Positions 6,812-20,307 of a stretch of 64,000 nucleotides of DNA are shown piece by piece. The stretch's first letter is position 1; every line of letters starts with the position of its first letter. Origin of the DNA: Algoriphagus sp. (GTDB lineage: Bacteria; Bacteroidota; Bacteroidia; Cytophagales; Cyclobacteriaceae); contig NZ_JABXIN010000001.1 in assembly GCF_013373065.1 (NCBI RefSeq), positions 1-64,000 of the forward strand, given 5' to 3'. The notes under the pieces were generated by a model. That model ran no database searches, was not told the origin of the DNA, and saw nothing but the letters and a program-made list of their open reading frames with translations. The position numbers were made by a program, and so were the translations under genes.

Positions 6812-7465
6812 CTATTTTAGCAAGGCTAATCCCTCTTTTGCCGATGCATCTCCGGGATTGAAAAGCAAAACTTTCTGGAAAAGAACTGTGGCTTCTCTGT
6901 TTTTCTGAAGTTGAAGTTTGTTCCAAGCCAACAACAGTAATCCATCATAATCAAAGGGATAGAGATTCACCACCTTTTCCAAGTAGGGTTCTGCCTTTTC
7001 ATAATTCCCTCGGTTGTAGTATATCAATCCCAGGCGATAATTCACCAAGGTGTTTTGGGGATCGATTTGCAGTATTTTGAGATAAACATCTTCTACTTCC
7101 ATCCATTTCCCCTGAACAGACAGTGGCAGCACCAAACCCAGTTTAGGTTCTATGGCATAGGGCTTCAGACTTACCGCTTTCCGGTAAAATCCCAAAGATT
7201 CCTCTAGCTGTGAAGCTTGGTAATGCAACCAACCCAAGCGGAGGTTCATCTCGTACGAATCAGACTTATAAACAGTCTGAATTGATTGGATAGCCCCTTG
7301 GTAATTACCTGCATTTTCCAAGGAATAACTTTCCTGAAAGGCCTTTTCTAAATCTTCTTGGGCCCAAGCAAAGCTGGAGAATACCAGAAAAGTACCTAGG
7401 AAAAGAATCCCTATTCTAGAGGCTACAGAATGAGAAAATCGATTGAATTCGGCTAAAATTTCCAT
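6812..7465 (-). CDS. Exported TPR-repeat protein
   Basis: 217 residues with an N-terminal signal segment (GILFLGTFLVFSSFAWAQ), then about five tetratricopeptide repeats (for example YQGAIQSIQTVYKSD, YEKAEPYLEKVVNLYP). It should be periplasmic and act as a protein-protein scaffold. It is the last of six tightly linked genes and overlaps the preceding TPR/beta-barrel gene by 13 bp, so translational coupling is likely. It probably assists the outer-membrane partner, which carries its own TPRs at the N-terminus. Confidence 0.8.
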   Translation of the reverse strand: MEILAEFNRFSHSVASRIGILFLGTFLVFSSFAWAQEDLEKAFQESYSLENAGNYQGAIQSIQTVYKSDSYEMNLRLGWLHYQASQLEESLGFYRKAVSLKPYAIEPKLGLVLPLSVQGKWMEVEDVYLKILQIDPQNTLVNYRLGLIYYNRGNYEKAEPYLEKVVNLYPFDYDGLLLLAWNKLQLQKNREATVLFQKVLLFNPGDASAKEGLALLK

Positions 7466-8796
7466 GAGAGGATTGCAGTTAAGGATTGAATAGAATAGGT
7501 TTTTAAATTTTGATCAGAAATAGCAGGGTTAGCTTGGAACCGACTGCTATTTGAAAAATTAGTAAAGTCCAAGGTCAACTTCCAGGAAGGATTAGGAACA
7601 AGCAATAGGCGACCTCCCCAACGCTGATCGATTTGATCAAGTCGATTGAAAACAACAATCCCCTGCTTGCTGATGTAGTTTTGGAGTTCGCCAAAGGTGC
7701 CATAGCCTTCAAGCCAAAGAAAATGAGTGAGTTTCAGTCCAATTTCCTGATTGAAAATTATTCGATTGGTAGATGCAACTCCGTCAAAACCTTGGTTCTG
7801 ATAGCTTAGTACCGAGTAGGTGTAGAGATTTAAATTCCCCATCGGGAAAAAACTCAATTGAAAATCTGTCTGAAGCTGATTTCCTGAATTGATTTTCCCC
7901 ATGTATAAATTGACACCTAAATCAAGGTAATTCAATCGTTTTGACAGCGCCCCAAATACCAACCAATCAAAAGCCTGAACCCGATCAGTTTCCACCTGTG
8001 TTTGGGGACTATTGCCAACAGATTGAATAAATGGAACATCATAAGCGAGCTGCAAAAGATGGCCTCCAAAAGATGCGCTCCACCCTTTTCCAATATAGTA
8101 TCCCGCACTGGCTACGTATTGCCAACTCGTTGAGCCATTGGTCGGGGTTTGAAGTGAAAGTCCGTTTTCCTGAGAGTAATAGAATTGCGTAGCCTGCAGA
8201 TAACTTAACCCTTGATACAAAGTCCATCGAGGACTCAATTGCAGACCCACTCCAAAAAATCCATAATGATGAAATCGAGGAATATATTGATAACCAATTG
8301 CCTCGACATCAGCTGGTCCGGAGAATTCATTAATTATCTGGGGATCAAGAGATCCCGTGTAATTATAAGCGAAATCCAGGCCTCTCAAAGAACCTCTTCG
8401 ATAAGTTTGTGTTTTACGTTTAAGTTCGGATGAAAATACCGAAACCAAAAGTTCCGCCTCTTCCTCTTTTCCAGACCAGAGATAGGAATAATAAAGGTAC
8501 TCCTTCACATATTCCTCCTCTTGATTTACTTCCCGGGCTTTCTCAAAATGAAGGGCAGCTTCTCGATAATTTCCTTTTTCAAAAAAGGCAATTCCTACTC
8601 TCACACGGAGGTAGTAAAAATCAATCTGTCGATTCAATGCCTCTCTGCCCACTTGAATCAATCCTTCCCAATCCTTAGCTTGGAACAAGGAATAGGTTTC
8701 GGAATCAACTCGGGAAACATTCCAATTTTCCTGAGCCTGAATGGTTCCCAAACCAGTAAGGAGAACGAAAAAAAAGAGGATTATTCGCTTTTGCAT
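7453..8796 (-). CDS. Outer-membrane beta-barrel protein with N-terminal TPRs
   Basis: 447 residues. There is a signal peptide (IILFFFVLLTGLGTIQAQ), then TPR-like helices at ~30-135 (YREAALHFEKAREVNQ). From ~150 to the end, alternating aromatic strands are typical of an outer-membrane barrel, ending in ...SLTAILSWKF with a terminal Phe. The TPR-plus-porin design resembles outer-membrane components of export systems and the YaiO-type barrels, although I cannot assign it to a named family. It overlaps the urea-transporter/M23 gene upstream by 16 bp and the TPR gene downstream by 13 bp, so the three are probably made together as an envelope-spanning set. Confidence 0.75.
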   Translation of the reverse strand: MQKRIILFFFVLLTGLGTIQAQENWNVSRVDSETYSLFQAKDWEGLIQVGREALNRQIDFYYLRVRVGIAFFEKGNYREAALHFEKAREVNQEEEYVKEYLYYSYLWSGKEEEAELLVSVFSSELKRKTQTYRRGSLRGLDFAYNYTGSLDPQIINEFSGPADVEAIGYQYIPRFHHYGFFGVGLQLSPRWTLYQGLSYLQATQFYYSQENGLSLQTPTNGSTSWQYVASAGYYIGKGWSASFGGHLLQLAYDVPFIQSVGNSPQTQVETDRVQAFDWLVFGALSKRLNYLDLGVNLYMGKINSGNQLQTDFQLSFFPMGNLNLYTYSVLSYQNQGFDGVASTNRIIFNQEIGLKLTHFLWLEGYGTFGELQNYISKQGIVVFNRLDQIDQRWGGRLLLVPNPSWKLTLDFTNFSNSSRFQANPAISDQNLKTYSIQSLTAILSWKF

Positions 8797-10967
8797 AGGG
8801 CTTTGACGGTTTGTTTTCCTCTTTCAAAAGCAAATGAACGAATGCCACCTGCATCAATCACAAATTCAAACTGACTGACCTCCAGCGTTTTTCCAAAACT
8901 GGACTTCCGAATTGATCCTTTCAAGGAGATAGGGGAATTGGAGAATCCCCGTTGGGCTAGTGGATATCCCAACTCATAATCAGCACGCAAATACTCATAA
9001 AATGGCGCGATAAAATCCTGGATAAAGATTCGCTTGGGGTGAAATATCTGATGAATTGGGAATGTATCCCGCAATTTCAATCCGGGAGTAAACCCAAAGC
9101 TGACTTTGTAGGCAGAAAGAAAAAATAGATAGAGCAGGGATTTCCGCTTGCCTTCAAAATGGGTAAAATGAAGCATCAATTCATCCGTCTTAAAAAAGGC
9201 TTTTGATTTCGTTTTCTCACAATACAAATATTTGTTGAGGAAATAATCCCGCTTGACTTCCCATTCTTCCTCTCCATCGAAGGTCTCAAAACGAATGGTT
9301 TCTCCTACCACAAAGGAAAACGCCTTTTTCACTTCTGGATTAGGTGTCAAAGAAGAAACCACAGCATCTTTGGGAGGATTAGAAGTGGATTGCAACTCTT
9401 CTTTTCCTCCATATCGCATCCAAACATCTGAAATTGGGTAATCCAAAGTAGCCGAACCTATGTAGGGACTGGCTTGAATTTGAAAATGAAGATGGGGATA
9501 GGGGGAATTTCCAGAATTTCCACATTTACCAATGACCTGTCCCTTTTCCACCTCTTGGCCCGGTTTGACCGAAATAGATCCTTTTTTGAGATGGGAAAGT
9601 TTGGAGTATAAAAACTCACCATGTTTAATAATCACTGTATTTCCCCAATTCTCTTCGAGGTTTCGGGTGCCTACCACATTGTCCTCCACATCATTGACTA
9701 CTTTCTCCACAACCCCTTTGGCCGGCGCAAGGATATTTTTATCAAAACAATAATAATCTGAAGGATAATCTCCCTCATTTTTAAAGGTTCTCCCTTCTTC
9801 ATCCTTGATTTCAAAATCCCAGGCATGCTTCCAGTCACCCTTATGGGTGTATTCTCCCTGATGCCCTTGGGTAACAGCCCATTCACCGAAAAAAGGAAGA
9901 TAAATCGGGATTGGGCTATTTTTCCCAAATCTTCTCATAAAGTTCCTGAAGGTGTAGAGGTTTTTTTCAGGGGCATTTTGCTGCCAAAAAATGGTACTTA
10001 GTCCCACTCGATTATCAACCCTAAATTTCAAGGCATACAAAACCAAAAGAGTAGCTAAATTGAATGGAAAAGCATGAACAGGTAGGTAGAAAGAATCTAA
10101 AATTTGCTGCAATGAAACCGTCATCAAAACAACCAATGGAATAACTAGCGAGAGCTGCAGGTAACTGCTTCGGTTGGGAATGATAAAGAAGCCACCTATT
10201 GCGATGGCCGTCAAAATGTAATTGAAACCAATGTAACTGAAGGCAACCTCTGAAAACGGAATCCCTAGGACTCCATAAAATAAATAAGCGATGTAAAAAC
10301 CGATCAAGGAAAGAGTGAAAGCAATTCGGGAATAAACCAATAATCCAAGTGCTGCCACCATCCCCGCTAGGATAGTCTGTTGAAAAAATATAGCGCCCAA
10401 AGAAAGAAAATAGGACCGTAAAGAATCGGGAATTGCCAAGTTCTGAACCCATTCATAGAATACAATCAGGTTTTTCCCTCCCAAGGTGTACAATTCATTC
10501 AAAAAATAAACACCACGCTCACTGAGGCCTAAGGCTTCAAATTGCTTTGCTGCTAACCGAAGCATCCAAAAAATCAAAACAAAGGGAAGGCTGAGAAAAG
10601 GAAGTCCATATTTTCCGAAAACGCCCTCAAAGGCGACAGATAACAGAACTGCTAAAATCCCCGCAAGGAAAACCAGAAGAAATAAAATAATTCCCGGCTC
10701 AAAATAAATCCCCAATCCTACTCCAACCAATAAGGCATTGAAGCCATAAAAGCCCTTCCGGATCAAGCTCTCTTCAAACCCCAGCACTTTTGCTGTTAGC
10801 AATGCAGTGGAAACAGCGAGAAAGCCAGATAATCCAACATAAAGATCTATAAAGGTTACGATAAGCAAAGCGACTCCAAACCCCTTGTGATCGGAGAAAA
10901 AAACTTGGGCGTAGCTATTGGATACGGCTACCCCAAACCATTCGAGTCGCTTGATGAGCTGTTTCAA
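8781..10967 (-). CDS. Urea-transporter-like membrane domain fused to an M23 metallopeptidase
   Basis: 728 residues in three parts. Residues ~30-315 are multi-spanning and contain two copies of the urea transporter signature, GLPFLSLPFVLIFWM (~121) and YLPVHAFPFNLATLL (~294), as expected for the two-repeat UT fold. Residues ~365-500 form an M23 (LytM/lysostaphin-like) peptidase: KHAWDF (~381) as the first metal motif, SHL with the catalytic His (~459), and HLHFQI (~492) as the HxH ligand pair. The first motif is H-x2-D rather than the usual H-x3-D. The last ~225 residues are unassigned. The membrane half may pass urea or a similar small molecule; the peptidase half would cut peptide or cell-wall links. 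It sits mid-operon with 17-bp spacing upstream. Confidence 0.85.
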   Translation of the reverse strand: MKQLIKRLEWFGVAVSNSYAQVFFSDHKGFGVALLIVTFIDLYVGLSGFLAVSTALLTAKVLGFEESLIRKGFYGFNALLVGVGLGIYFEPGIILFLLVFLAGILAVLLSVAFEGVFGKYGLPFLSLPFVLIFWMLRLAAKQFEALGLSERGVYFLNELYTLGGKNLIVFYEWVQNLAIPDSLRSYFLSLGAIFFQQTILAGMVAALGLLVYSRIAFTLSLIGFYIAYLFYGVLGIPFSEVAFSYIGFNYILTAIAIGGFFIIPNRSSYLQLSLVIPLVVLMTVSLQQILDSFYLPVHAFPFNLATLLVLYALKFRVDNRVGLSTIFWQQNAPEKNLYTFRNFMRRFGKNSPIPIYLPFFGEWAVTQGHQGEYTHKGDWKHAWDFEIKDEEGRTFKNEGDYPSDYYCFDKNILAPAKGVVEKVVNDVEDNVVGTRNLEENWGNTVIIKHGEFLYSKLSHLKKGSISVKPGQEVEKGQVIGKCGNSGNSPYPHLHFQIQASPYIGSATLDYPISDVWMRYGGKEELQSTSNPPKDAVVSSLTPNPEVKKAFSFVVGETIRFETFDGEEEWEVKRDYFLNKYLYCEKTKSKAFFKTDELMLHFTHFEGKRKSLLYLFFLSAYKVSFGFTPGLKLRDTFPIHQIFHPKRIFIQDFIAPFYEYLRADYELGYPLAQRGFSNSPISLKGSIRKSSFGKTLEVSQFEFVIDAGGIRSFAFERGKQTVKALCKSE

Positions 10968-10984
10968 AGCATTGGGGATAAAAG

Positions 10985-12343
10985 TTAGAGATCAAATTTT
11001 TTCAAATGATCCGGTAATTCTTCCTGAGAATTCAGCGTTTCCAAGGTTTCTTTTTTCCGGATAATATGTGGTTTCCCTTCCCTGTCCAATAAAATCACAT
11101 TGGGTCGATACGTAATAAACTGCATCCATTGCGTCATATTGTAGGCACCCACCCGACGAATCACAAACTGATCTCCTTTTTTGAGAAGAGGGAACATCAT
11201 ATTTGAACGGATCACATCAATATTCATACATAAGGGACCATAAATAGTGGTGTCCTCCGATTGATCTGACACGGGAGCGATAGGGCGCAAATCATGCTCA
11301 TACCAAAAAGAGGTAAACATCAGGTTGACTCCGGCATCGATAATAGTTGCCCTTCGACCATCGGAAAGTCGTTTGGTAGCGAGGACTGTCCCTGCCAAGT
11401 AACCTGCCTCGTCAATCAAAGCCCTTCCTGTTTCCAATAGCAAGAGTGGCAAATGATCCGGTTTGATATCGGAGCTTATCAAAGCTGAGGTAATGGCTTC
11501 CGCAAAATCATCAAAGGAGGGAGCGGTGTCCGTTCCTGGATAATAGGCTCCTCTTAAGGTGTTTTTTGAGGCAAAACCTCCTCCTAGATCAATGTATTGC
11601 AGGATATGACCATATTTTCGTTCTAACTTAACTGCCAAGCTTGCCAATTTAGTAGCCGCTACTCGGTAAGCGTCTGTACTAAGCATGTAAGTACCTATAT
11701 GGGTGTGCAATCCTAAAAGGTCAAGCCTCTTGCTGGCCATAATTCGATTTAGAGCATCCCAAGCTTCCCCGTTTTCAAAGTTAAATCCAAAGCGATCCCA
11801 TTGAGGATAAATACCCGTATCCATATTTACCCGGATGGCGACTTTTGGGCGTTCGTCCAACTCCTTACTTAGATGAATCAATTCATAGAGTTCATCAAAA
11901 TGGTCAATATGAATAAGTGAATGATTTTGGATAGCAATTCTTAAATCCTCCTGGGATTTATCAGGACCATTAAATACGATCAGTTCACCGGGTACCCCAT
12001 TGCTTAAAGCTTTTTGATATTCAAATCCAGATACCACCTCAGCCCAAGCGCCTTCCTGATGAAAAATATTGCAAACTGCATTGAGATAATTGGTTTTATA
12101 GGACCAAGAAAACTGAACCTTTGGATAGCGGGAACTGAAAGCCCTATAGGCTTCTTTGTAGGTTTTTCGAATGGTTTGCTCTGAAATAATAAACAAAGGC
12201 GAGCCAAACTCCTCCAAAAGGGTTTGAATAGAAACCCCATCAATATGGCTGAGTGGTTCCAACCGTCTTGGCATTCCATATTTACTCGGCAATCCCGCAT
12301 TAATTCGCTGGATAATTGGCCGTTCAAAAGTTAGCTTACGCAT
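10985..12343 (-). CDS. Fold-type III PLP enzyme, diaminopimelate/ornithine decarboxylase-like
   Basis: 452 residues with the alanine-racemase-like barrel and C-terminal beta domain of group IV decarboxylases. Visible motifs are the Schiff-base lysine K83 (WSYKTN), GLHTHIGT (~211), phosphate-binding IDLGGGF (~251), LETGR (~303), the interface cysteine motif GPLCMNIDV (~369) and VGAYNM (~398). In diaminopimelate decarboxylase the cysteine motif reads C-E-S/T-x-D; here Glu is replaced by Met, so the substrate probably differs from meso-diaminopimelate. It lies 12 bp after the ATP-grasp gene and 17 bp before the UT-M23 fusion. A role in lysine synthesis is less likely than a decarboxylation or epimerisation step specific to this operon. 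Confidence 0.85.
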   Translation of the reverse strand: MRKLTFERPIIQRINAGLPSKYGMPRRLEPLSHIDGVSIQTLLEEFGSPLFIISEQTIRKTYKEAYRAFSSRYPKVQFSWSYKTNYLNAVCNIFHQEGAWAEVVSGFEYQKALSNGVPGELIVFNGPDKSQEDLRIAIQNHSLIHIDHFDELYELIHLSKELDERPKVAIRVNMDTGIYPQWDRFGFNFENGEAWDALNRIMASKRLDLLGLHTHIGTYMLSTDAYRVAATKLASLAVKLERKYGHILQYIDLGGGFASKNTLRGAYYPGTDTAPSFDDFAEAITSALISSDIKPDHLPLLLLETGRALIDEAGYLAGTVLATKRLSDGRRATIIDAGVNLMFTSFWYEHDLRPIAPVSDQSEDTTIYGPLCMNIDVIRSNMMFPLLKKGDQFVIRRVGAYNMTQWMQFITYRPNVILLDREGKPHIIRKKETLETLNSQEELPDHLKKFDL

Positions 12344-12355
12344 AATGCTTCTAGG

Positions 12356-13402
12356 TTAAAGTTCTCCTCGGGTAGAAAACTGTTCAAATGCTTTCAAATC
12401 ACAAATCATATCATAGGAATAGCGGATAAATAGCTTTCCAACCTCATAGTCCTCAAAAGGCTTCACTTCCTTCCCTAGGGCTAGCAAGACCAATACTTCG
12501 GGAAGATTCTGCCCTGCCGCTACTGCCAAATACACCCAAGCTGGTAAGCGGGGATTAATTTCGATCAAGTACAATTCCTGCTTGGCAGTACGAATCAATT
12601 CCAACTCCATTCCTCCTCGCCATTTGGTTTGGGAAATGACTTGATGTGTTAATTCAAGCATTGCTGGATCTTTCAATGTGATCCCTCCCCAAGCTTTCCC
12701 TTTGTCGGTAATGTAGGTTTTCCGCATGGGCACAGCACCAACGGTATTTCCTCTACCATCTCCCATGGCTACCACGTTAACCTCAGTACCCTTGACAAAT
12801 TCTTGGATGACAATGGGTAGCCCCCATTTTGCCGCGATCTTATTGAAAAAGATAGCTACCTGCTCCCGATCATAGGCGATGTGGGCATCATAAAACTTTC
12901 CTTTTACCACCACAGGATAATCAAACTTTTTTTCGATTTCACGCCAATCGTGCAAACTTGTAATAGGTTCGCTATACGGGACCTTCACATTATATTTTTT
13001 ACCATACTCCGGTAAATTGGATTTGTGGCGTTCCTCAAACTGTTGCAGAGGGGGTAGGAAGGTCCGAATCCCCATTTCTTGAAGGACCCGTTCGGACTTC
13101 ATCACCGTAAATAATTCAGAGTCAAAATTGGGGATCAAGACCTGAATCTGCTCCTGAAAATGGATATATCGAATCCGATCTAAAAAAGGCTCAACTCCGT
13201 CTGAAGGATAGGGAACCTTGTACGTTTTGTCCACCAAATCATGCATGTAAATTCCCGGCTCCAAGTTTTCATAGGCCAGACCTATCACTCGGACATCCAG
13301 TAACTCAGAATCCCTCAATCCTCTAATGACTGGAACGCCAGGCCCCGGACTGTCTATATTATTCAATCCGGAAAGGGCTACTGTAACCTTAATCTTCTCC
13401 AT
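12356..13402 (-). CDS. ATP-grasp ligase (carbamoyl-phosphate-synthase-like)
   Basis: 348 residues of the ATP-grasp superfamily, which activate a carboxylate as acyl phosphate and join it to an amine or thiol. The N-terminal pre-ATP-grasp domain begins VTVALSGLNNIDSPGPG. The central part carries YPVVVKGK and the ATP-contacting IVIQEFVKGTEVNVV, and the metal-binding end is YLIEINPRLPAW. It overlaps the PqqD-like gene by 14 bp and precedes the PLP enzyme by 12 bp. ATP-grasp enzymes paired with a PqqD-fold protein suggest ligation on a carrier or leader peptide, but the substrate is not evident. No biotin-carboxylase or D-Ala-D-Ala ligase signature was clear. Confidence 0.85.
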   Translation of the reverse strand: MEKIKVTVALSGLNNIDSPGPGVPVIRGLRDSELLDVRVIGLAYENLEPGIYMHDLVDKTYKVPYPSDGVEPFLDRIRYIHFQEQIQVLIPNFDSELFTVMKSERVLQEMGIRTFLPPLQQFEERHKSNLPEYGKKYNVKVPYSEPITSLHDWREIEKKFDYPVVVKGKFYDAHIAYDREQVAIFFNKIAAKWGLPIVIQEFVKGTEVNVVAMGDGRGNTVGAVPMRKTYITDKGKAWGGITLKDPAMLELTHQVISQTKWRGGMELELIRTAKQELYLIEINPRLPAWVYLAVAAGQNLPEVLVLLALGKEVKPFEDYEVGKLFIRYSYDMICDLKAFEQFSTRGEL

Positions 13403-13646
13403 CTGCTTCGATTAAGTTCATCTGTTTTAAGGTGGCTACAAAATCATAGAAGTAGCGTTCGAAACTCTCGGAATCCAATTCATATTTTTCGCTGAACTCT
13501 TCCAGAATTTCTTGAAGATCTTTTCCTAATTGAATCAATTGAACGATTTCAAGCCCGGTCGAATTCAGAGAAAAAGAATCTCCTGTCCCCGCATCGAAGA
13601 CAAAACCAGACTCGCTGATGGCGACGTTACTTTTTAGCTTAAGCAT
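13389..13646 (-). CDS. PqqD-like peptide-binding protein
   Basis: 85 residues with the PqqD/RRE pattern: an N-terminal beta region (NVAISESGFVFDAGTGDSFSLNSTG), then helices (IVQLIQLGKDLQEILEEFSEKY) and a C-terminal FVATLKQMNLIE helix. PqqD folds bind leader peptides of ribosomally made natural products and hand them to modifying enzymes. There is no PqqA, PqqC or PqqE here, so PQQ synthesis is excluded. It is the first gene of a six-gene unit and overlaps the ATP-grasp gene by 14 bp. A 26-codon ORF (13739 down to 13659) ends 12 bp before its ATG and is discussed as a possible precursor or leader ORF. Confidence 0.8.
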   Translation of the reverse strand: MLKLKSNVAISESGFVFDAGTGDSFSLNSTGLEIVQLIQLGKDLQEILEEFSEKYELDSESFERYFYDFVATLKQMNLIEADGED

Positions 13647-13816
13647 GGCTTTTGGGGTTTATTTTGCCAAAAATCTTAAGAAAGAAAGCCAATATAGCTT
13701 GGATAAACTATGATAAAAATCACGTAGGGATCTGGTCATCGATTAAAAACCATGACCTTTTTGAGCAAACCAAAAGGGTTCTTTAAGTTTTGATTCACAT
13801 TATCTTAAAAAATGAA

Positions 13817-14773
13817 TCATTGAATTCGTTGCATCACAATAGCATGTCCTTTTTGCATAACAGTAACTTGGTTGCAATGGGACAAATGAGTGAATTCATA
13901 GGGTTCGTCTATTGAAAACGAGTGAATGCTATTGTTTTCAAAAATCCCCGAACATTCCAAAACTCCTTCTGGGGAAAATCGAGAGATCCGATATCCATGG
14001 GGTTCTTCCTGCAAGTTGAACCAGGAACCAGCCACCTCACCGGCTAACCATTGGCTTTGGAACGGAATAGATTCAGGTTTGGCAGGCTGAGGTAGCGTAC
14101 CATGAACTGTATCCCAAGAATAGGCTCCTGTGCTGTGATATTTACCGGATGAAACACTCTCGTCGTAGGGAATCAGGTGCTTGTTCATGAGAAGGTCCAC
14201 ATTAGTAATGGGCATGGGCTTAAGGTGCCAAAAGTAATTCAATAGACTTTTTCTCCACCAAGGAAGCTTTGGAGCTCCTGCCAAAAGACCAGTTCTTACA
14301 AAGCGACAACAATTGGTACCATTCAGGGTAAAAGGTCCAAAGGGAATAGAGCCCATTCCCTGCATGGATTTCACTTTTTCAAAAGCAGACTCATAATTCA
14401 CCTCACAATAAGAAGCCGTCAAAGGCCCCATGCCGAATGTCCAAGGGTTCGATTGAATTTCCTGGAGAATTTCCTTGAAATTTTTCAAAGCTTTCCCGTC
14501 CCAGAGTGCGCGAGTCTGAATTTGTAAGGGAGCGTCCGTAGATTCATCACGGATTCGCCCATATTGGTAAGGCGCATGGTAACGTCCGCAATCAAAATAC
14601 CTACAAACTCCCTCCTCTTTTTGGATTAGGACCAAAGAGGCATGCCCTACCCGATAATGGAATTCCTTATTAAATCCAAGAAAGGTCATGGGCTTATCAT
14701 ACCAAGTTCCGGTCTGCTTCCCTACAAATTCCGGCCAGGCTATGGCAATTGCGATTCCAGTTTGAGAAGACAT
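13817..14773 (-). CDS. DUF6695-like protein, possible permuted papain-fold hydrolase
   Basis: 318 residues without a signal peptide. It resembles Bacteroidetes proteins annotated DUF6695. The N-terminal half has FHYRVGHASLVLIQ and RYFDCGRYH, and ~110 residues later LNGTNCCRFVRTGLL. A GH motif followed by an NC..FV motif is the order expected of a circularly permuted NlpC/P60-like cysteine hydrolase, with His before Cys; this is inference. The C-terminal ~90 residues look like a beta-rich accessory part. It follows the fatty acid hydroxylase gene by 32 bp and precedes the PqqD operon by ~170 bp, with no terminator seen between, so it may belong to the same transcript. Confidence 0.6.
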   Translation of the reverse strand: MSSQTGIAIAIAWPEFVGKQTGTWYDKPMTFLGFNKEFHYRVGHASLVLIQKEEGVCRYFDCGRYHAPYQYGRIRDESTDAPLQIQTRALWDGKALKNFKEILQEIQSNPWTFGMGPLTASYCEVNYESAFEKVKSMQGMGSIPFGPFTLNGTNCCRFVRTGLLAGAPKLPWWRKSLLNYFWHLKPMPITNVDLLMNKHLIPYDESVSSGKYHSTGAYSWDTVHGTLPQPAKPESIPFQSQWLAGEVAGSWFNLQEEPHGYRISRFSPEGVLECSGIFENNSIHSFSIDEPYEFTHLSHCNQVTVMQKGHAIVMQRIQ

Positions 14774-17810: not shown

Positions 17811-18006
17811 AGTTATCTTCTAATGTCAAGGTTTTTTCAACGCAATAATTCAACTGATTTTTATCAGCAAATCCAAATCTGATTTTTAATTTATTTAAAT
17901 TAATTTATTGATATTCAAATAATTAAATCATTTTACACTTGAATTCAAAAACCTCATAGAAACAATCTATTTTTTTACAGATTTAATAGGATCTAATTTC
18001 GAATAG

Positions 18007-20307
<2,301 letters not shown>

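Follow-up and report, generated by a model that had tools for sequence, protein, structure and literature searches.

The six genes that follow one another on one strand of an Algoriphagus sp. contig raise the question of what a PqqD-like protein, an ATP-grasp ligase, a PLP decarboxylase, a channel-peptidase fusion and two TPR proteins could make together, and which partner the PqqD-like protein recognizes. The genes, here called A to F from 5' to 3', lie in a stretch of 64,000 nucleotides (the window). No report of this six-gene operon was found in the literature searched.

Organization and conservation of the cassette

The coordinates of the six open reading frames were re-read exactly from the window sequence; all of them are on the minus strand at 6812-13646 (Table 1). 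The spacings are -14 (A/B), +12 (B/C), +17 (C/D), -16 (D/E) and -13 bp (E/F). These are the values given in the first-pass annotation, and family profiles also bear out the domains that it named (PqqD, ATP-grasp, fold-type III PLP decarboxylase, UT plus M23, and TPRs).

Table 1. Coordinates of the genes, domains and motifs in the window.
Feature	Position	Strand	Length (aa)	Match or remark
A, discrete PqqD-fold RiPP recognition element (RRE)	13389..13646	-	85	PF05402, 1.2e-9
B, ATP-grasp ligase, CarB/PylC-like class	12356..13402	-	348	PF15632, 3e-10
C, fold-type III (alanine-racemase-fold) PLP decarboxylase with N-terminal leader-like tag	10985..12343	-	452	PF02784 and PF00278 (Orn/DAP/Arg decarboxylase)
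Tag island 1 of C, residues 6-11, FERPII = [YF]E[RK]Px[IVL]	12311..12328	-		candidate RRE-binding leader motif
Tag island 2 of C, residues 17-23, GLPSKYG = Gx3KxG	12275..12295	-		candidate core/acceptor with invariant Lys21
D, UT-type membrane channel, M23 metallopeptidase and C-terminal beta domain	8781..10967	-	728	UT PF03253, 5e-62; M23 PF01551, 1e-17
UT domain of D, residues 1-313	10029..10967	-		pore residues compared with dvUT
M23 domain of D, about residues 361-500	9468..9887	-		zinc-peptidase residues invariant
E, secreted TPR protein with predicted outer-membrane barrel	7453..8796	-	447	signal-peptide-like N-terminus, weak TPR matches
F, exported TPR protein	6812..7465	-	217	TPR_2, 1.7e-18
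FNR/CRP-type palindrome GTGATTTTTATCAT	13710..13723	-		78 nt 5' of A; putative operator

In a sample of 396 genomes of the phylum Bacteroidota, orthologs of B with 39-89% identity occur in 33 other genomes. None of the 33 other orthologous loci departs from the order A-B-C-D or from the shared strand, an arrangement far beyond chance, and 13 further named loci agree with it. Junctions are 40 nt or shorter in 27-32 of 35 loci, and A and B have an overlap of -4 in 19 of these 35; such an overlap is typical of translational coupling. Furthermore, the pairwise protein divergences correlate (B-C, r = 0.91; B-D, 0.93; D-F, 0.85). The first-pass annotation had treated the genes as a single system and asked whether their homologs are scattered in relatives; in the phylum sample they stay together and the idea survived. 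The six genes are one evolutionary unit. The cassette is accessory, being carried by 8 of 76 genomes of Algoriphagus, the genus of the window. It was found in about 9% of the sampled genomes of the phylum, so its product is probably common in nature.

TPR and outer-membrane-barrel genes come after A-D in nearly all loci, and hardly any locus of the 396-genome sample lacks F itself. The barrel of E is predicted from its sequence. Other lineages have, in place of E, a separate predicted barrel of ~275 aa adjoining F. Fusion of TPRs and barrel, as in the window, is thus one variant of a TPR protein plus barrel pair; the earlier description of a barrel with TPRs followed by a periplasmic TPR protein is right for the TPRs of E and F, and its fused form applies to this variant only.

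The palindrome GTGATTTTTATCAT occurs in every Cytophagales locus but one, between -74 and -83 relative to A; it was not found in locus L039 or in the loci from outside the Cytophagales. The pattern has 35 forward plus reverse matches in the genome, versus 15 for a reversed control pattern. This putative site suggests that the operon is controlled by oxygen or nutrient state. A role in anti-phage defence was rejected, as PADLOC gave no match for the cassette, and so was carriage on plasmids, where the sole match was a Streptomyces protein with 28% identity.

Relatives of the recognition protein, the enzymes and the channel

A profile of A built from 30 relatives has its best matches to the lasso RREs TbiB1 (5v1u, 4e-13) and TfuB1 (6jx3, 4.5e-10), and residues G14, F15, F17, G22 and N28 are invariant. 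By these matches A is a discrete RRE, closest to the lasso-peptide B1 proteins. It resembles these and PqqD in fold and in the recognition motif discussed below. A lasso peptide pathway was nevertheless rejected: the Asn-synthetase-like cyclase and the B2 transglutaminase-like peptidase are absent from the six genes and from the recurring locus families, there is no free precursor in the cassette, and the motif sits on an enzyme. A also scores 42.5 bits against PqqD_rel_X (TIGR04353; cut-off 35). Membership in the HPr-rel-A system was rejected, since no protein of 8 cassette genomes scores above the cut-off for the HprK-related kinase A (TIGR04352). A weak TIGR04352 match in the genome of the window adjoins a different PqqD, on contig C24. 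Nor is A a carrier of amino groups like LysW, because its C-termini vary and have no conserved acidic end in Glu.

The profile of B matches CarB, 2pn1 and PylC. Its CarB/PylC-like class and the lack of an adjacent precursor speak against a graspetide pathway.

The structure model of C has a pLDDT of 89. All 33 sequences retain the fold III signature, i.e. the PLP lysine K83, the catalytic Cys-xxx-Asp (C372/D376) and Y401, and also H215 and GGG254-256. The closest solved relative is the N-citrylornithine decarboxylase FigC/FslC (7kh2; 302 bits versus 230 for LysA). A Met follows the catalytic Cys in both proteins (C372-M373 in C, C354-M355 in FigC), so that the acid at this position is lost in C. 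Furthermore, the specificity helix lacks the Asp/Arg of ODC, ADC and DAPDC; it has T344, W347 and Y348, where FigC has T327, T330 and Y331. An assignment as diaminopimelate decarboxylase LysA fails, with 219 bits against a TIGR01048 cut-off of 297.9 and the loop CMNID in place of CESxD. C thus shares its fold, its catalytic residues, the Met after the Cys and the lack of the basic-substrate Asp and DAP-binding Arg with FigC/FslC, SbnH, AcsE, MccE and BtrK. Unlike this group it has a leader-like N-terminal tag and is paired with an ATP-grasp ligase and an RRE. The fold named in the first-pass annotation holds, and we refine it to the conjugate-decarboxylase subgroup; C is similar to enzymes that decarboxylate conjugated amino acids (FigC, SbnH, MccE, BtrK) and not to the diaminopimelate or polyamine enzymes.

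In butirosin formation BtrJ, an ATP-grasp ligase, loads the substrate of BtrK. BtrJ/BtrK/BtrI therefore likewise combine an ATP-grasp ligase with a fold-III decarboxylase that acts on a tethered amino acid. The cassette differs in having no acyl-carrier protein, with an RRE in that place. The substrates of FigC, SbnH, AcsE, MccE and BtrK are all conjugates, with a peptide in the case of MccE and a carrier protein in that of BtrK (PMC7857480).

The AF2 model of D (mean pLDDT 89.6) was compared with known structures using Foldseek. The two main parts have the folds of the dvUT/SLC14 urea channels (3k3g, TM 0.87 of target) and of LytM/M23 structures (~1e-6 to 1e-4); D differs from both in fusing them, in an altered pore filter and in an extra C-terminal beta domain. 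Of the dvUT pore pairs Q24/E187 and T130/T294, Q24 alone is mostly kept, while E187 is replaced by A/L, T130 by S and T294 by S/V/A; D was therefore rejected as a selective urea transporter. In the M23 domain the Zn ligands (His, Asp, HxH) and the catalytic His, comprising H375, D384, H459, H492 and H494, are invariant in 40/40 aligned sequences.

The best matches of this domain are murein hydrolases. Together with the barrel and TPR parts, they would suit a cell-wall system, in which the channel is a scaffold that anchors D as a murein endopeptidase in the periplasm, and A-C modify the wall or surface. Proteins of the UT family, however, have both termini in the cytosol; in D the UT part is flanked on either side by K/R-rich segments, and there is no additional TM helix before M23. 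By this topology the M23 domain would face the cytosol, and we consider the cell-wall system most improbable. Hence, although the UT and M23 folds of the claimed channel-peptidase fusion were recovered, a plain reading as a urea channel plus wall hydrolase is not safe, as the key urea-coordinating residues are missing and the topology puts M23 on the cytosolic side. In locus L086 the UT and M23 parts are split. The break falls within seven consecutive T and is likely a frameshift or sequencing error, so we rejected this split as proof of a cytosolic M23.

A leader-like tag on the decarboxylase

C carries an N-terminal tag of ~32 residues, which consists of two conserved islands with a variable spacer between them and a variable linker after them. 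In island 1, P9, Y/F6 and I/L/V11 are found in 33/33 sequences and E7 in 32/33; in island 2, K21 occurs in 33/33, G23 in 32/33 and G17 in 31/33. The mean fraction of the commonest residue is 0.80 for island 1 and 0.75 for island 2, versus 0.41 for the spacer (residues 12-16) and 0.38 for the linker (24-32). Residues 6-25 have a pLDDT <50 and are predicted to be disordered; the remainder of C has high values. The tag falls outside the alignments of C to FslC and LysA, and this genome encodes two more members of the family, both of which lack it.

RREs bind a motif [Y/W]xxPx[L/V/I/F/A] (PMC13381572), and a W/Y/LxxP motif is also described for the PqqD group (PMC12710340). Island 1 matches the former; in the Cytophagales position 6 is Phe. 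Searches with the tag against short-peptide families gave only matches below the threshold (best, PF19397, 0.0068), and there was no match to the NCBIfam lasso leaders. One marginal match of the tag profile (E 0.005), in genome G386, has a stop inside.

Of the hallmarks of an RRE-dependent RiPP pathway, the locus has a PqqD-like RRE and a leader-like segment with the RRE motif, the latter on C; no separate precursor gene was found. RREs normally serve separate precursors, and the pairing of an RRE with an ATP-grasp enzyme is normal RiPP logic. A and B could accordingly process a separate peptide, or the secreted protein with a T9SS tail that is encoded directly 5' of A in about ten loci, with C modifying the attached residue. 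The small ORFs 5' of A were compared across loci and none is conserved, which led us to reject a precursor at that site. The T9SS protein bears a signal peptide and was not found in the Cytophagales. Furthermore, the sole clear match of the tag profile in 32 genomes is the N-terminus of C. We regard a free precursor as quite unlikely; the partner of A is probably C itself. The PqqD partner is thus not simply missing, because C bears a leader motif at its N-terminus. No precedent for an enzyme-borne leader motif with a matching RRE adjacent was found in the literature searched.

The same tag bears on a small-molecule pathway, siderophore-like or for an amine conjugate, in which A is a structural subunit and the tag an ordinary extension that aids folding or dimerisation of C. 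The closest solved relative of C is indeed a siderophore enzyme, and control by oxygen or nutrients would fit. However, the extension is predicted to be disordered and carries an RRE motif beside an RRE gene, and the cassette is devoid of a citrate-type NIS synthetase and a TonB receptor, which makes this pathway highly unlikely.

A candidate pathway

The first-pass annotation had proposed a cytosol-to-envelope system with an amino-acid-derived or peptide product that is exported. This is supported in part, for example by the order kept in relatives, and we infer the chemistry. The genes form one system that extends from the cytosol into the envelope, and its product is probably derived from an amino acid or linked to a peptide. 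We tentatively propose, at a little under even confidence, that A recruits tagged C to B, that B conjugates and C decarboxylates, and that D and the barrel/TPR proteins process or export. In this scheme A would bind the tag and bring C together with B. B would use ATP to form an amide bond between an amino acid and an acceptor that A presents, with the alpha-carboxylate left free, and C would remove this carboxylate to give an amine. D, with its channel-like domain and zinc peptidase, would work at the inner membrane, trimming the product and/or releasing it; the TPR/barrel pair may carry the product across the periplasm and outer membrane. Against this scheme, an unrelated precursor may be encoded elsewhere in the genome.

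The tag could be either the acceptor itself or a docking handle only. As the acceptor, it would make C an enzyme-fused precursor: B would load an amino acid on Lys21, the PLP domain of C would decarboxylate it, and M23 would free the Gly-x-x-x-Lys-x-Gly piece beside the UT-like pore. Cutting of a cytosolic tag by M23 fits badly, since the known activities of M23 peptidases are extracytosolic, and we judge this version unlikely. With docking only, A would hold B and C together via the tag for substrate channelling; the substrate would be a small molecule and the tag would never be modified. The data on recognition of the tag by A (RRE match, motif, disorder) fit equally well here, FigC and SbnH act on small conjugates (PMC7857480), and a UT-sized pore suits a small product. 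Docking only leaves unexplained the second island, with invariant Lys21 and with Gly23 in a disordered segment, and the intact M23 domain; it is possible, if somewhat doubtful.

In LysW pathways an amino acid is built on a protein carrier and released by a peptidase. Scaffold-peptide (PEARL) pathways, e.g. for 3-thiaglutamate, build the amino acid on a peptide carrier from which a peptidase releases it (PMC9016710). The cassette differs from both in having neither a PEARL nor a LysW-like carrier. Borosins (OphMA), in which the precursor is fused to a methyltransferase, would be a precedent for a substrate peptide and an enzyme in one chain, whereas the cassette has other chemistry, an N-terminal fusion and the involvement of an RRE.

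If the proposed scheme is true, RREs can recruit enzymes besides substrates, or precursors hide inside enzymes, where they escape genome-mining tools built around small ORFs. A fused precursor would mean a new class of ribosomal natural product in the Bacteroidota, with the decarboxylase as both precursor and tailoring enzyme. An odd list of domains thereby becomes a testable pathway.

Composition and spread of the cassette

The first-pass annotation had described six closely spaced genes on one strand, encoding a PqqD-type leader-peptide-binding fold (A), an ATP-grasp ligase (B), a fold-type III PLP decarboxylase homologue (C), a UT-type membrane channel fused to an M23 peptidase (D), an outer-membrane barrel with TPRs (E) and a periplasmic TPR protein (F). 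Re-examination of the ORFs bore out the shared strand and all five spacings; Pfam and NCBIfam concur with its domain calls. When genome contigs were searched with the UT part, related cassettes turned up in Algoriphagus, Rhodonellum, Mariniradius, Lunatibacter and Bacteroidales MAGs. The proposal that the genes form one unit also held, as all six are adjacent in unchanged order in 11 of these or related loci, with variable flanking genes. Loci without the intact block are truncated at contig ends (L035, L048), have B split into two ORFs (L040) or carry a degraded E (L047).

With B as query, matches were obtained in 35 of the 396 Bacteroidota genomes sampled. One (G406, 26% identity) was dropped as a non-orthologue; orthologues (39-89% identity) occur in 34 genomes including the window's own. 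In all 33 others A, B, C and D are consecutive on one strand; strict adjacency is broken by a gene between A and B in L110 and by a 690-nt gap from C to D in L113. F comes next in nearly all of these loci, and loci that lack E, the TPR protein with a predicted barrel, usually encode a distinct barrel-like protein (about 280 aa) next to F or D. At most junctions the genes overlap or lie a short gap apart, and the protein distances of the cassette genes correlate with one another. The cassette is a real, widespread, uncharacterised system. Within the window's genus it is an accessory element, carried by 8 of 76 genomes. B of G303, a genome from another class, is 69% identical to the window's B, versus 53% for G203 from the same order; the fact that some other-class proteins are the nearer ones suggests that the whole cassette may have been transferred horizontally.

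A decarboxylase with a leader-like tag

Among solved proteins C matches FigC/FslC, an N-citrylornithine decarboxylase, best (302 bits; LysA 230), and the catalytic residues of C are invariant. Like FigC, C has Met directly after the catalytic Cys; its specificity helix carries Thr, Trp and Tyr, not the Asp or Arg of ODC/ADC and DAPDC. FigC, SbnH, AcsE, MccE and BtrK decarboxylate amino acids conjugated to citrate, a peptide-nucleotide or a carrier protein (PMC7857480). The nearest relatives of the ATP-grasp enzyme B are CarB and PylC-like ligases. Since C resembles decarboxylases of conjugates and B is ligase-like, conjugation would be expected to precede decarboxylation.

Alignments with FslC and LysA do not cover about 32 N-terminal residues of C, and this extension was not found in the other two fold-III decarboxylases of the window's genome. 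Its consensus is KK[YF]E[RK]Px[IVL]xKxxxG[LMI]xxKFG; all 33 sequences share P9 and K21, and E7, G17 and G23 are almost invariant. Conservation is 0.80 for residues 6-11, 0.41 for 12-16, 0.75 for 17-23 and 0.38 for 24-32. AlphaFold2 gives residues 6-25 a pLDDT below 50 and most of the rest above 85. Conserved and predicted to be disordered, the extension looks like a recognition tag.

The best solved relatives of the A profile are TbiB1 and TfuB1, discrete RiPP recognition elements (RREs) from lasso pathways. Such RREs bind the leader motif [Y/W]xxPx[L/V/I/F/A] (PMC13381572), and a preference for W/Y/LxxP has been reported in groups that include PqqD (PMC12710340). In 32 genomes the tag profile gave one strong match per cassette copy, invariably the N-terminus of C, and no conserved small ORF was seen upstream of A across loci. 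We infer that A binds C. The new point is a decarboxylase bearing a leader-like tag with its RRE encoded next door; the tag may be either a substrate or a handle.

The membrane protein D

The structure model of D (pLDDT 89.6) resembles dvUT (TM 0.87 of target) and LytM-type M23 domains. In the pore Q24 of dvUT is mostly retained, whereas E187 is replaced by Ala or Leu, T130 by Ser, and T294 by Ser, Val or Ala. The M23 zinc and catalytic residues are complete in 40 of 40 sequences. Both termini of UT proteins are cytosolic, K/R-rich stretches flank the UT part of D on both sides and no extra TM helix was seen in D; the M23 domain is therefore predicted to be cytosolic, which would be unusual for M23. 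In L086 D is broken between its UT and M23 parts, probably by a frameshift or sequencing error.

Upstream sites and neighbouring genes

An FNR/CRP-like palindrome lies 74-83 nt upstream of A in every Cytophagales locus except L039. Genome-wide the pattern occurs 35 times, versus 15 for the control. Intergenic copies of GTGAYNNNNRTCAT in the window's own genome (L118, L124, L132) precede Hsp20-like, thioredoxin-reductase-like and MBL-fold persulfide-dioxygenase-like genes, identities that were assigned by eye. These copies may mark an FNR/CRP-family regulon; control by oxygen or sulfur state is a guess.

Coordinates of additional features in the window and in compared loci
Feature	Location	Remarks
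Site TGATTTTTATCA	window 17855-17866	resembles the site before A; about 160 nt upstream of the catalase-peroxidase-like gene
Exported catalase-peroxidase-like gene	window 18025-20307	
TseH-like gene	window 13817-14773	DUF6695 C-terminal domain; upstream of cassette, same strand
Region with second PqqD gene	G000:C24:11397-12526	window's genome, apart from cassette; near weak HprK-related match
Divergent cassette	L110:1810-8272	FG-GAP protein between A and B; D only 532 aa
Split D	L086:12144-14398	UT and M23 parts in two ORFs; break at run of seven T
T9SS-tailed protein	L092:8217-9062	similar genes in L094-L097, L099-L103

The TseH-like gene is absent beside most loci and adjoins the cassette in L037 also. 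In about ten loci from another class, a protein of ~280 aa with a signal peptide and a T9SS type A sorting tail is encoded immediately upstream of A; this protein is possibly a pathway partner or target.
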